A stretch of DNA of 38,078 bases from a virus, in the IMG/VR virus record IMGVR_UViG_3300033141_003329, positions 1 to 38,078 of that record; one strand, written 5' to 3'. Positions within the stretch are counted from its first letter, which is position 1, and the number at the start of each line of letters is the position of its first letter. Under the pieces are notes generated by a model. That model did no database searches, was not told where the DNA came from, and saw only the letters and a program-made list of their open reading frames with translations. A program made the position numbers and the translations under genes. This document shows, one piece after another, positions 17,467-34,095 of the stretch.

Positions 17467-17826
17467 ATGCACTTTGTAGATGTGGCGGCGACGCGCGAGA
17501 TCCACGCCGAGTGGTGGCCCGAGGGCGAGACGGTCTCCCTCCGGCCCTTTACCTGGTTGGACGAGCAGCGGATCAGCGAGCGATCGACGACCGTGGACCG
17601 CAGTGACCCGGACAATGTGTTGGTGCAGGTCGACAACACGGCCTGGAACGAGGCGCGCCTCGACCTCGGGGTGGTGGACTGGACCGTCAGCGACGCGCAG
17701 GGAAACACGGTGCCCTGCACGGCGGCGAACAAGCGGCGGTTGGGCAGAAAAGACGCGCTGTTCATCCTCGGCGAGATCCAGGACCTGAACAAGGAGCGAA
17801 CTGCCGACGAGCAGCGTTCCTTTTGA
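17467..17826 (+). CDS. tail assembly chaperone (gpG-like)
   Basis: ATG 17467 is preferred since GGGAGG (17457-17462) precedes it; a TTG at 17440 would also be in frame. The 119-aa protein includes EWWPEGETVSLRPFTWLDEQ and GRKDALFILGEIQDLN, and ends at a TTT TGA that looks like a frameshift site. By position, between tail tube and tape measure, it is the G component of the tail chaperone pair that coats the tape measure during tail assembly. Confidence 0.75.
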   Translation: MHFVDVAATREIHAEWWPEGETVSLRPFTWLDEQRISERSTTVDRSDPDNVLVQVDNTAWNEARLDLGVVDWTVSDAQGNTVPCTAANKRRLGRKDALFILGEIQDLNKERTADEQRSF

Positions 17827-17829
17827 GAT
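17818..17829 (+). other. candidate +1 programmed frameshift site
   Basis: The sequence TCC TTT TGA GAG lets the P-site tRNA-Phe slip from TTT (17821-17823) to TTT (17822-17824) while the slow stop TGA waits, as in prfB (CTT TGA C). The +1 frame then reads FEIDLETMLRDG and joins the next gene without a break, giving a 187-aa G-T fusion. Confidence 0.65.
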
Positions 17830-17842
17830 CGATCTGGAGACC

Positions 17843-18031
17843 ATGCTGCGCGACGGCAAGATCCCGGCCCAGTGGGATACGCTGGCGCTGATGCGCTGGA
17901 TGGGGTGGGACTGGCCCGCGCTGTGCGCGACACCGGCCTGGATGGTCCGCGAGTTGATCACCTGGATGAAGAAAAAGGCGGCGCTGGACCACGTGCGCGG
18001 CCTGCAGGCGGGCAAGGGAACGAGGGGTTGA
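17843..18031 (+). CDS. tail assembly chaperone T extension
   Basis: The 62-aa frame (MLRDGKIPAQWDTLALMRWM onward) is the T half of the G/GT pair. The open frame extends upstream as FEIDLET to the end of G, and only a poor ribosome site (GGAG three bases from the ATG) precedes it, so it is most likely made as a fusion by +1 frameshifting. It has Trp-rich helices (GWDWPALCATPAWMVRELIT) and ends in a basic tail. Confidence 0.7.
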   Translation: MLRDGKIPAQWDTLALMRWMGWDWPALCATPAWMVRELITWMKKKAALDHVRGLQAGKGTRG

Positions 18032-18078
18032 CGGCAAAGATGAAGTGTGATGTAAGGATGCTATCGCGTGGGGCTGTG

Positions 18079-18333
18079 CTAGCAGATGGACGGGAAAGAA
18101 ACGCGGCTGTTAAAGCGATGCACCGTGTCGTTCTCTGGGTATTCGCAGGGCTGCACGGCAAAGGTGCCCGGGGGGTGCATCTTGCTGGCCTCCTGGAAGG
18201 CGACGAACTCGTCGTCATAGACGCCGATCACCTCATCATCCTTGAGCACCAGCACTTTGCCCTCGTACTGTTGGGCGAGTTCCTGCTGGTGCGCCTTGTA
18301 GAATCTGAACTGGGCAATCAGTGCCTCGTACAT
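18079..18333 (-). CDS. small moron protein (84 aa), DUF5678-like
   Basis: This gene is encoded against the tail operon and has its own promoter at 18379-18406, so it looks like a lysogenic-conversion moron. ATG 18333 is preferred over the upstream GTG 18345. The product carries the pattern YEGKVLVLKDDEVIGVYDD, an acidic strand-turn domain of a small widespread family, and a C-terminal half with VQPCEYPEN. The function is unknown. It ends ~50 bases from the convergent end of the tail chaperone. Confidence 0.65.
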   Translation of the reverse strand: MYEALIAQFRFYKAHQQELAQQYEGKVLVLKDDEVIGVYDDEFVAFQEASKMHPPGTFAVQPCEYPENDTVHRFNSRVSFPSIC

Positions 18334-18378
18334 GGTCCCTCTCACACAGTAGCAGTGCCATGGCTGCCGACTGACTCC

Positions 18379-18406
18379 AGTATAGCACGTCCTATCACCA
18401 TGTCAA
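18379..18406 (-). promoter_or_regulatory. sigma-70-type promoter of the moron (minus strand)
   Basis: Read on the minus strand it is TTGACA (18406-18401), a 16-base spacer, and TATACT (18384-18379). The distance to ATG 18333 is about 40 bases. Confidence 0.65.
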
Positions 18407-18420
18407 CACCCAATTCCCCC

Positions 18421-18449
18421 TTGACCCCACCCCCCGACTGTGATATACT
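18421..18449 (+). promoter_or_regulatory. sigma-70-type promoter with extended -10
   Basis: TTGACC (18421-18426), a 17-base spacer ending in TGA, and TATACT (18444-18449) form a near-consensus promoter with an extended -10. It is divergent from the moron promoter and drives the structured leader and the 107-aa gene. Confidence 0.7.
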
Positions 18450-18455
18450 GGTGAG

Positions 18456-18634
18456 TGAGTCGACAAACTCTTCACAATGGACCGGTTTTTTCGTGCCTGG
18501 ACGCAATGCGTACGTATCGCATTGGGAACAGAGCCCGGTATCGGTGACCCAACTGGTCCAGAGTTTGGCGACTCCACCAGGTGCGAACACTGATACCGGG
18601 TTTTGTATGTCGCACGCTGAAAGGAGTCGACAAA
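18456..18634 (+). ncRNA. structured leader or small RNA of unknown class
   Basis: It starts about 7 bases after the -10 box and runs to the next gene. A hairpin CAATGCG/CGCATTG (18504-18510, 18518-18524) is followed by a nested structure: an outer 13-bp stem (18534-18546 with 18588-18600, one G-U pair), a middle CTGGT/ACCAG (18553-18557, 18576-18580) and an inner GAGT/ACTC (18561-18564, 18571-18574). GGGTTTTG after the outer stem resembles a weak terminator. An exact GAGTCGACAAA occurs at both ends (18457-18467, 18624-18634). No convincing reading frame lies inside. Confidence 0.5.
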
Positions 18635-18958
18635 ATGTGTCACGCAGAGGTAGCAGAACTGTTGGAAGCGCTCGAGGACGCGAGCGCCAATGGAGACCCC
18701 GACCAGCTCGGGGCCAAGATCAGGCAGCGGGCAGTGGAACGGGCCGAGGCGGCACAACGGGCGATCGACAAACACCTGTGGGAGGTCTTGCCCAAGAAGC
18801 AAGTGCGCCTGGTGCGCATGTCCGACTCGCTGCTGTTGATGGGCGGCCTGGTCGGCGGGTGGATCGTGCCCGGCGAGAATTTCGACCTGGCCGGTGGCTG
18901 CCAGGACATTTTCGAGACCGTGGCCATCGCCGAGACGCTGCTCGGCGAAGCCATCTAG
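18635..18958 (+). CDS. unknown protein of the moron island (107 aa)
   Basis: ATG 18635 is preceded by AAGGAG (18621-18626), spaced by the GAGTCGACAAA repeat. The product has a charged helical half (LLEALEDASANGDPDQL) and a C-terminal hydrophobic stretch (SDSLLLMGGLVGGWIVPG) that could enter a membrane. It is transcribed from its own promoter and followed by a hairpin. The function is unknown; its setting suggests expression in the prophage. Confidence 0.6.
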   Translation: MCHAEVAELLEALEDASANGDPDQLGAKIRQRAVERAEAAQRAIDKHLWEVLPKKQVRLVRMSDSLLLMGGLVGGWIVPGENFDLAGGCQDIFETVAIAETLLGEAI

Positions 18959-18977
18959 TACCACACAACCACAGAGC

Positions 18978-19012
18978 GAGCCGGGCGGGAGGCGTGTCTT
19001 CCTGCCCGGCTC
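18978..19012 (+). terminator. stem-loop downstream of the moron gene
   Basis: GAGCCGGGC (18978-18986) and GCCCGGCTC (19004-19012) form a 9-bp GC stem with further pairing inside the loop. No T-run follows. It probably limits moron transcription before the tape measure gene. Confidence 0.55.
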
Positions 19013-25781: not shown

Positions 25782-25828
25782 TAGCGGGGCTAGGATTCGA
25801 ACCTAGGACCTCCGGGTTATGAGCCCGT
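25782..25828 (-). other. attP core: 3' half of tRNA-Met (anticodon CAU)
   Basis: Read on the minus strand, the segment has an anticodon loop CTCATAA in a CGGG/CCCG stem, a T-arm CTAGG-TTCGAAT-CCTAG and an acceptor 3' strand CCCCGCT followed by A. The 5' half upstream does not pair: no AGCGGGG acceptor strand exists, and the D-arm (TAGCTCTGCGGGTAC) lacks its second strand. Only the 3' half is intact, as expected for a phage attP that restores the tRNA on integration. CCA is not encoded. Confidence 0.8.
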
Positions 25829-25915
25829 GTACCCGCAGAGCTACCACGGCACGTCCGGTTCCGCGATCTTTCGTACCCGACGGACAGCAATGCTACAATA
25901 CCCGACGAGCGGCGG

Positions 25916-28278: not shown

Positions 28279-28334
28279 CGTGTGAGTTTCACACGAACTC
28301 TTGACAAACGCAAGCGAATGTGAGATAATGTCAC
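28279..28334 (+). promoter_or_regulatory. lysogeny switch: operators and rightward promoter
   Basis: The palindrome CGTGTGA-GTT-TCACACG (28279-28295) lies just before a rightward promoter with TTGACA (28301-28306), 17-base spacing and GATAAT (28324-28329). A second site GTGA-GATAATG-TCAC (28320-28334) covers the -10. The first site also borders the weak -35 position of the leftward repressor promoter, so one bound protein could repress one side and activate the other. Confidence 0.7.
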
Positions 28335-28747: not shown

Positions 28748-29082
28748 CCGATACCCCTACCCTCTGGCCCAACGCCCACTGCGCAAGCAGCCCCTGGGGC
28801 TGCGACAACGACTCTGGCCACATCAGCGCCCGGCCCAACTACTGCCAGCACTGCGGCCAACCCGACATCTATCCCATCCTCGTCACACCGGCAACGCACA
28901 TCCACCTCTGCCCGCGCTGCATCCAGCAACTCGTGCGTGGTCAGCTCTCTCTCCACAGCAAAACGGCCCTGCAATCCGCACGCGACTGCATGGCCATGCT
29001 CATCTCCGGTGGCCCCCGGGGCCCCTGGCCCCACTATCAGACCTCCCTCGTCTGGGAACAGCCCCAGACGGGAGCGGCCTGA
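28744..29082 (+). CDS. Cys/His-rich small protein (112 aa)
   Basis: GTG 28744 overlaps the previous stop. Cysteines pair as C-x6-C, YCQHCGQ and LCPRC, suggesting one or two zinc sites. A helical middle (KTALQSARDCMAMLI) and an aromatic tail follow. The early-region position suggests a host-takeover protein. No family recognised. Confidence 0.6.
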   Translation: MTDTPTLWPNAHCASSPWGCDNDSGHISARPNYCQHCGQPDIYPILVTPATHIHLCPRCIQQLVRGQLSLHSKTALQSARDCMAMLISGGPRGPWPHYQTSLVWEQPQTGAA

Positions 29083-29107
29083 CAACCGCTCCACTCCTTT
29101 CTCCATA

Positions 29108-29138
29108 GGCGGGGTCGGTAGGTCAGGCCGTCCCCGCC
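29108..29138 (+). promoter_or_regulatory. hairpin ahead of the 40-aa gene
   Basis: GGCGGGG (29108-29114) and CCCCGCC (29132-29138) pair, extended to 11 bp with one mismatch (GGCGGGGTCGG / CCGTCCCCGCC). There is no T-run; it is an attenuator-like structure between small early genes. Confidence 0.45.
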
Positions 29139-29165
29139 ACGAACACACCACCCGCGGGAGGAACG

Positions 29166-29288
29166 ATGATACAAACCTTGGTAGAACTAGCCCGAACGCT
29201 GCGTGCCTGGTGCCACCGCGAGGGAGACCTCATCGGCCTCCTGCGATCGAGGTACCAGGTCAGCAGCGGTCAGGTCCTCATCGAATAG
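29166..29288 (+). CDS. small protein of unknown function (40 aa)
   Basis: ATG 29166 has GGGAGGAACG directly upstream, one of the best ribosome sites in the region. The product is a helix (MIQTLVELARTLRAWCHREG) followed by a short basic strand part (LIGLLRSRYQVSSGQVLIE). It is followed at once by a strong terminator, so it closes the first early transcription unit. Confidence 0.55.
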   Translation: MIQTLVELARTLRAWCHREGDLIGLLRSRYQVSSGQVLIE

Positions 29289-29293
29289 AAACA

Positions 29294-29338
29294 GTCCGGC
29301 GAGCAGATCTAGTGGATCCGCTCGCCGGACTACCTTTT
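29294..29338 (+). terminator. rho-independent terminator
   Basis: GTCCGGCGAGC (29294-29304) and GCTCGCCGGAC (29320-29330) make a perfect 11-bp stem followed by TACCTTTT. It ends the early operon that began at 28301. Confidence 0.8.
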
Positions 29339-29438
29339 CTGCAGGAGGTGCATAGACCACAACGCCCACAAACCCATAGTGGTGTCTCCCACCAACGCAA
29401 CTACATCAGACGAGCAACGCAACAAAGGAACCCGAACC

Positions 29439-33797: not shown

Positions 33798-33914
33798 TTT
33801 TGGGGTCGTTTGGTGGTCTTGGTACGTAACGTTGTAACGTTAAGAACATATATGTTGAGTTCAGCGGGATCGGGGATGCGATCGGGTGGAGGGGGGCGAG
33901 ATTTGCGAAACGTT

Positions 33915-34058
33915 CGAAACGTGTCATGTAGTGACACGTTTCGCAAGAGGTGTCTTGCGTGTGTGACACGTTTCGCAAGAGGTGTCTTGCGTGTGTGACA
34001 CGTTTCGCAAGAGGTGTCTTGCGTGTGTGACACGTTTCGCAAAGAGGACTTTGCGAGG
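33915..34058 (+). repeat. 32-bp tandem hairpin array with leading inverted repeat
   Basis: Four tandem 32-bp units start at 33931, 33963, 33995 and 34027. Units 1-3 are identical; each has a stem CGCAAGA-GGTG-TCTTGCG. Unit 4 is diverged but keeps its stem by compensating changes (CGCAAAG-AGGA-CTTTGCG). Just upstream CGAAACGTGTCA (33915-33926) is inverted to TGACACGTTTCG (33932-33943). There are no spacers, so it is not a CRISPR array. It may be part of the origin or a multi-hairpin leader of the next operon. Confidence 0.85.
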
Positions 34059-34095
34059 AAAACAGGTGGTTGACACGTCTCGGAAAGGAGGTCCG

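Follow-up and report, generated by a model that had tools for sequence, protein, structure and literature searches.

What is the role of the roughly 180 bases without a gene that follow a strong promoter inside the tail operon of an uncultured phage? The stretch (18456-18634) belongs to a window of 38,078 nucleotides, the whole piece of viral DNA analyzed here, and an initial annotation had suggested that it might be either a stand-alone RNA or a riboregulator of the 107-aa protein encoded behind it. Our analysis points to the 5' leader of an accessory moron cassette, which probably, with odds that we put at about 70%, switches translation of the downstream small protein at the RNA level. Related phages have this device too, its matching code changed in almost all copies, a pattern that suggests an RNA switch complete in itself.

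The record contains terminase, portal, protease, and major head genes (PHROGs). The leader and the gene of the 107-aa protein (18635-18958, plus strand; no family found) are part of an insert, about 1 kb long, that separates the tail assembly chaperone gene from the tape measure gene, and these two genes are adjacent in all three relatives first examined (L132, L133, and L134). The chaperone gene itself (17467-18032) appears to extend through a frameshift at TTTTGAG; the site in relatives is TTTCGAG or TTTTGAA, which fits a shift at a Phe codon whose direction we infer to be +1. Of the features by which morons are recognized, insertion between neighboring genes is seen here, together with a predicted promoter of the cassette's own, while the GC-rich, terminator-like strong hairpin 3' of the gene (18978-19012, plus strand) has no T-run. 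The promoter is of the sigma-70 extended -10 type (TTGACC-17-TATACT, 18421-18449, plus strand; 10/12 matches, TG one base before the -10 box), as the initial annotation had it; another near-consensus extended -10 promoter is found at 28301-28329 (plus strand). The insert also holds a divergent gene of 84 aa on the minus strand (18079-18333) with a near-consensus promoter (18406-18379, 11/12 matches); its product has no relative in the related locus L135 (tblastn), and no family was found for it. The promoters of the leader and of this gene share an inverted TATACTGG-like block.

All leader elements lie on the plus strand, and every feature noticed initially is present. The 7-bp hairpin P2 (18504-18524; CAATGCG/CGCATTG, 18504-18510:18518-18524) is present and varies between members of the family described below. 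The long stem P3 has the reported 13-bp core (18534-18546:18588-18600) and extends to 19 pairs with G-U (5' arm 18528-18546, 3' arm 18588-18606), its 3' arm running into a short, non-conserved T-run (18601-18604). The repeat GAGTCGACAAA occurs exactly at both ends, at 18457-18467 and 18624-18634; the second copy, earlier placed between the Shine-Dalgarno sequence and the start codon, does adjoin the start codon, ending at the ATG (18635), but overlaps the Shine-Dalgarno sequence (GGAG, 18623-18626), and so is not wholly between the two.

Absent from that account is a third segment, B (18561-18575), the reverse complement of both repeat copies; on the minus strand, 18564-18574 equals the repeat copy with one mismatch. 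In the 38 kb, only three sites are within one mismatch of GAGTCGACAAA, all in the leader and in the order +,-,+. The repeat makes sense because B complements both copies. We denote the 5'-terminal copy of the ribosome-site tag, a putative decoy able to form a small hairpin, as A (18457-18470), and the Shine-Dalgarno sequence with its tag, the target of B, as C (18623-18634); B carries CTCC, an anti-Shine-Dalgarno sequence, in the loop of P3, and may have either A or C as its partner. Judged by complementarity, A, at the transcript start, and C, overlapping the Shine-Dalgarno sequence and touching the ATG, are competitors for B in the P3 loop. Two more helices complete the picture: A2 (18478-18487 with 18551-18560) lengthens the A:B helix into a long rod, and 2 of its 7 counted pairs are changed on both sides in L135; A3 pairs 18490-18500 with 18577-18587. 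The window is the weakest member of the family, with an A-G mismatch in both the A:B and B:C helices.

Ten further distinct copies of the leader, often two per phage, were found in related phages, which makes, with the window, 11 distinct leaders (the window, L135, L143, L011, L006 at two places, L142, L140, L189, L192, and L208), all from one circle of uncultured phages. Alignment of tail proteins yielded 21 viral and two genomic loci as relatives. A homologous leader is seen at the same insert position in L135, 66% identical over the matched part, and a covariance model (R1) was built from this leader and that of the window. Among 35 sources, R1 matches L143, L011, L006 (two places; L007 is the same), and L142, and the full A/B/C triad is present in these four loci with other bases. 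A triad descriptor added L140 and its near-identical counterpart L141, which are not independent evidence for the triad, as they were found by asking for it; the descriptor alone lacks specificity (at k=9, 176 loci gave 18 matches and shuffled sequence gave 4). L189 and L192 came from a second covariance model (R2) combined with a DNA pattern whose code was left open, and R2 applied to whole records added L208. Across 22 records R2 has matches in 8 and none in 14; two copies each are found in G005/G006 (one phage in two records), G010, G014, and G015.

In a negative control of 96 unrelated viral loci (838,594 bases), R2 gave no match at E up to 1; in bacterial genomes from two phyla (398 and 395) it gave, respectively, none and one weak match (L215), rejected as lacking the A-B-C triad. 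A search with the leader DNA returned nothing from plasmids and only a 20-base match from phages. The first viral pattern, AGTTTGGCGACTCC, was too short and gave chance matches only; with a later one, 1 of 17 matches was real (in the record of L135). Left out of the set were L141 and L007 (the latter repeating the elements of L006), additional loci from records already represented (L174-L177, L179, L183, L185, L187, and L196-L207), R1 matches beyond E 0.061, reverse-strand matches that represent the complement of P3 (among them L209-L214), and matches of the open-code pattern with no R2 match.

Conservation of the pairings among homologues, on which the initial annotation had made its reading depend, is what we observe: they are kept through compensating changes in the 10 further distinct leaders. 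All 11 show the common order promoter, A, A3, P3, B, A3', P3', C, start codon, with the extended -10 motif TGnTAnnnT 6-9 nt before A in each. For A:B, 148 of 154 cells are paired, and 48 cells are changed on both sides; for B:C, 108 of 110 are paired, 31 are changed on both sides, and the Shine-Dalgarno sequence is always covered. In every member A and C agree at 9 or 10 of their first 10 bases, P3 (13-21 bp) closes a hairpin of 70-81 nt, and A3 has a counterpart of 8-15 bp, A3 being the least certain element because helix finding ran free within set zones. The comparison of the window with L135 alone gives 106/107 paired cells (99.1%) and 10/55 pairs changed on both sides, against 0-1 in controls with slid partners; the strongest helices of L135 are those of the window, built from other bases. 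In a structure-free alignment of eight members (L141 dropped), 109/111 cells of P3 are paired; both sides are changed in 21, and there are 13 G-U but no A-C; the presence of G-U without A-C indicates that the plus-strand RNA is what is selected. That the leader is a real, selected RNA element is well supported.

Hardly any two copies share a tag, and each B matches its own tag far more closely than those of others. If the code is defined as the seven bases that come after the initial three of A, it pairs with its own B in 76/77 cells, whereas with a foreign B the mean is 3.86 of 7 (110 combinations), and 6 or 7 is reached by three of the 110. As free strands, B and C bind with a mean of -20.7 kcal/mol in cognate and -10.0 kcal/mol in non-cognate combinations; one of 110 non-cognate combinations is as strong as the weakest cognate one. 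The string TCGACAAA is common to the tags of the window and L143, though their codes differ by position; hence, there are 11 codes by position, or 10 if this pair is counted as one.

The most direct view of code change is given by L140, L189, and L192, whose leaders are nearly the same, with differences mainly in the code and the changes written three times. Between L140 and L192, 7/21 code positions differ vs. 3/138 others (Fisher p 2.4e-5); the counts are 7/21 vs. 7/138 for L140 and L189 (p 4.9e-4) and 6/21 vs. 6/138 for L189 and L192 (p 1.4e-3). For L141 and L189, both in record G014, they are 7/21 vs. 8/138. The two L006 copies are out of register and hence were left out of these position counts.

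The 179-nt leader of the window folds at -73.1 kcal/mol (z -4.35), and none of 200 shuffles is as low. The parts 18528-18606 (z -6.84) and 18457-18574 (z -4.84; 0/400 shuffles for either) have z values inflated by the hand-chosen segment ends. When 120-nt windows were scanned without bias along both strands (1898 in all), 18521-18640 came 4th (z -6.22); the leader is thus outstanding but not unique in the genome. Several very stable hairpins, with z below -5 on both strands, occur at 29041-29400; strong folding on both strands is also seen for tandem repeats with the unit GTGACACGTTTCGCAAGAGGTGTCTTGCGTGT at 33890-34060, possibly an origin or protein-binding iterons; a tRNA match (32.8 bits) is located at 25782-25850 on the minus strand.

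The strong helices of the leader, i.e., the A:B and A2 rod, the A3 helix, and P3, are incompatible in one nested fold, and two mutually crossing helices as strong as these are seen in none of 1000 shuffles. Folding of growing prefixes of the window predicts the rod up to about 18600 and P3 from 18610; for the family, it predicts A:B in 11/11 members, while the full leader has P3 in 8/11 and A:B in 3/11. Constrained ensembles of the window have energies of -92.4 (A:B), -92.6 (B:C), and -97.9 kcal/mol (P3), and opening of the ribosome site would cost 5.7 kcal/mol in the A:B state vs. 8.2 kcal/mol in the P3 state. Under nested folding, B:C is the minimum in cis in none of the 11 members; hence, closing would need either a P3+B:C pseudoknot in cis or a freed hairpin in trans. 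With an estimated penalty of 9.6, the pseudoknot is lower in energy than P3 alone in 9/11 members, the exceptions being the window and L189, and lower than the A:B state in 8/11.

These results are consistent with the following course of events. Pairing of B with C would shut the Shine-Dalgarno sequence, and pairing of A with B would leave it free. During transcription A would meet B first, and the fresh transcript should start open, since A and B are made before C. The emerging 3' arm of P3 could then pull the rod apart and leave B in the P3 loop, from where it could close on C of the same molecule, forming a pseudoknot; or the 70-81-nt P3 hairpin could be released by processing, and B would then close on other copies of the transcript. 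B may thus act in cis, in trans, or in both ways. In hok-type mRNAs of type I toxin-antitoxin systems, metastable folds during transcription are likewise followed by closing of the ribosome-binding site, under the control of a separately transcribed antisense RNA, whereas here the antisense is in the leader itself.

The explanation closest to the proposed switch, with which it overlaps, puts the main effect in trans: the P3 hairpin would be cut out as a stable antisense RNA of 70-81 nt, silencing the same gene on incoming or sister phages, i.e., as an immunity RNA. We consider this quite possible, at somewhat less than even odds. The known c4 RNA shares a transcript with its own target and is cut by RNase P to a stable RNA. 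The c4 antisense RNA of phages P1 and P7, cut from a larger transcript, is about 77 nt when mature and has three stem-loops and two targeting loops, one of which covers the ribosome-binding sites of target mRNAs while another sets specificity (PMC5320573); a separate upstream motif, c4-a1b1, is listed in another source (PMC2864571). The size of the P3 hairpin in all members is similar, and B, as shown by the conservation of B:C over the family, is likewise antisense to a ribosome-binding site. The differences from c4 are that the present RNA has a single long hairpin carrying one code, not three stem-loops with two targeting loops, that A starts the transcript, and that the gene is that of a small accessory protein, not an antirepressor.

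In phage P4, one antisense RNA, CI, is complementary to an upstream and a downstream segment (seqA and seqC) of one phage transcript (PMC4825925), and B, likened to CI by description, has in A and C an upstream and a downstream target as well. P4 CI acts via early transcription termination on replication genes, whereas the downstream target here is the Shine-Dalgarno sequence, and there is no conserved terminator. In the prophage leader of IsrK of Gifsy-1 (orf45-anrP), which its source likens to the P4 system, alternative folds open and close a ribosome-binding site; the IsrK small RNA activates, and the source, in the part used here, does not describe an A-B-C code triad. A trans role would also agree with the divergence of codes between copies, as immunity specificities diverge. 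However, no processing site or separate RNA is seen, the pairings would be kept by cis action alone too, and competition in cis also accounts for the A segment at the 5' end. By analogy, our best reading is an antisense switch on translation, in cis and possibly also in trans, that follows the logic of P1/P7 c4 or P4 CI, yet in an RNA family unmatched by Rfam.

The genes behind the leader bear on another explanation, in which RNA and protein form a toxin-antitoxin or phage-defence unit of a type III-like kind, the RNA neutralizing the protein by binding it. A phage RNA with a small protein under its own strong promoter would fit such a unit, and AbiF with RCd22 is a known phage example (PMC12373285). 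In eight of the 11 members the gene encodes one small-protein family with the core V-x-L...C...A (alignment of eight rows); those of the window, L135, and L142 are unlike it, as judged for L135 and L142 by inspection only. The L135 insert, at the same place as that of the window, has a different protein behind the leader, with no mutual resemblance between the two; as the downstream proteins differ, the RNA is more constant than its cargo. The window protein (P0001) found nothing in viral contigs, genome contigs, or phages, P0002 nothing in viral contigs or phages, and two downstream proteins of relatives nothing in phages. Searches of the cassette proteins against Pfam, PHROGs, and PADLOC identified no family, only weak sub-threshold Pfam matches. 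The predicted structure of P0001 is poor (mean pLDDT 55.5) and has no match with E up to 0.001. A fair model (83.5) of the A6 protein family (L140, L189, L192, L006, L011, and L143) predicts a beta hairpin and three main helices; it has no match in PDB with E up to 0.001, and its best viral structure match is an uncharacterized protein of Streptomyces phage Circinus (E 0.052, probability 1.00). A toxin-antitoxin or defence unit is unlikely: eight proteins have no defence family match, the pairing codes aim at the ribosome-binding site and not at a conserved protein-binding site, and the proteins differ more than the RNA.

A stand-alone small RNA with an intrinsic terminator near 18605, the other half of the initial proposal, would fit the TTTTG that comes after the 19-bp stem in the window, and L135 has a similar run. 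Most relatives, however, have a weak U-run after P3 or none, which is evidence against an intrinsic terminator; the site was not picked by a terminator scan; and C, past the proposed end, is kept with its ribosome-site pairing in all 11 members. This makes such an RNA quite unlikely, so that of the two original alternatives the riboregulator is strongly supported by the compensating changes, while the stand-alone RNA is not borne out.

Riboswitches, too, usually place alternative folds at a ribosome-binding site within a 5' leader, and a ligand might be sensed ahead of the small gene. We regard this as very unlikely, given no conserved binding core (15 of 201 columns of the leader alignment are invariant over nine rows), a variable part that is exactly the pairing code, different genes behind the leader, and no Rfam match. 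Rfam, including c4 (RF01695), has no match to the element in the window at the gathering score, none in 18300-18800 at E up to 10, and none at the gathering score in six member loci. Finally, sites acting at the DNA level, repressor operators or recombination repeats, would suit one motif in three copies of +,-,+ order next to the divergent promoter pair of the window, but are most improbable, as a protein would need a new target in nearly every copy, P3 has G-U and no A-C, and compensating pairs occur across all helices.

In the open-licence PMC literature we found no leader described that combines decoy, antisense, and ribosome site and whose codes differ between copies, which is weak evidence of absence. 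The switch proposed here would represent an RNA family unmatched by Rfam; its covariation is strong, and its layout is unusual in that decoy, antisense, and target are in one leader. Natural sets of leaders in which little but a short code varies would allow a direct test of how antisense specificities diverge, as in immunity groups or plasmid incompatibility, and provide natural sets of presumably independent translation switches. More tentatively, and with slightly less confidence than an even chance, the cassettes may constitute an RNA-coded self/non-self system, with a private tag of about 7 bases written three times, in the decoy, the antisense, and the ribosome site. If so, cassettes in one phage or in co-infecting phages would be independent, identical ones would silence each other, and selection would make the tags diverge simultaneously in all three positions, as among L140, L189, and L192.
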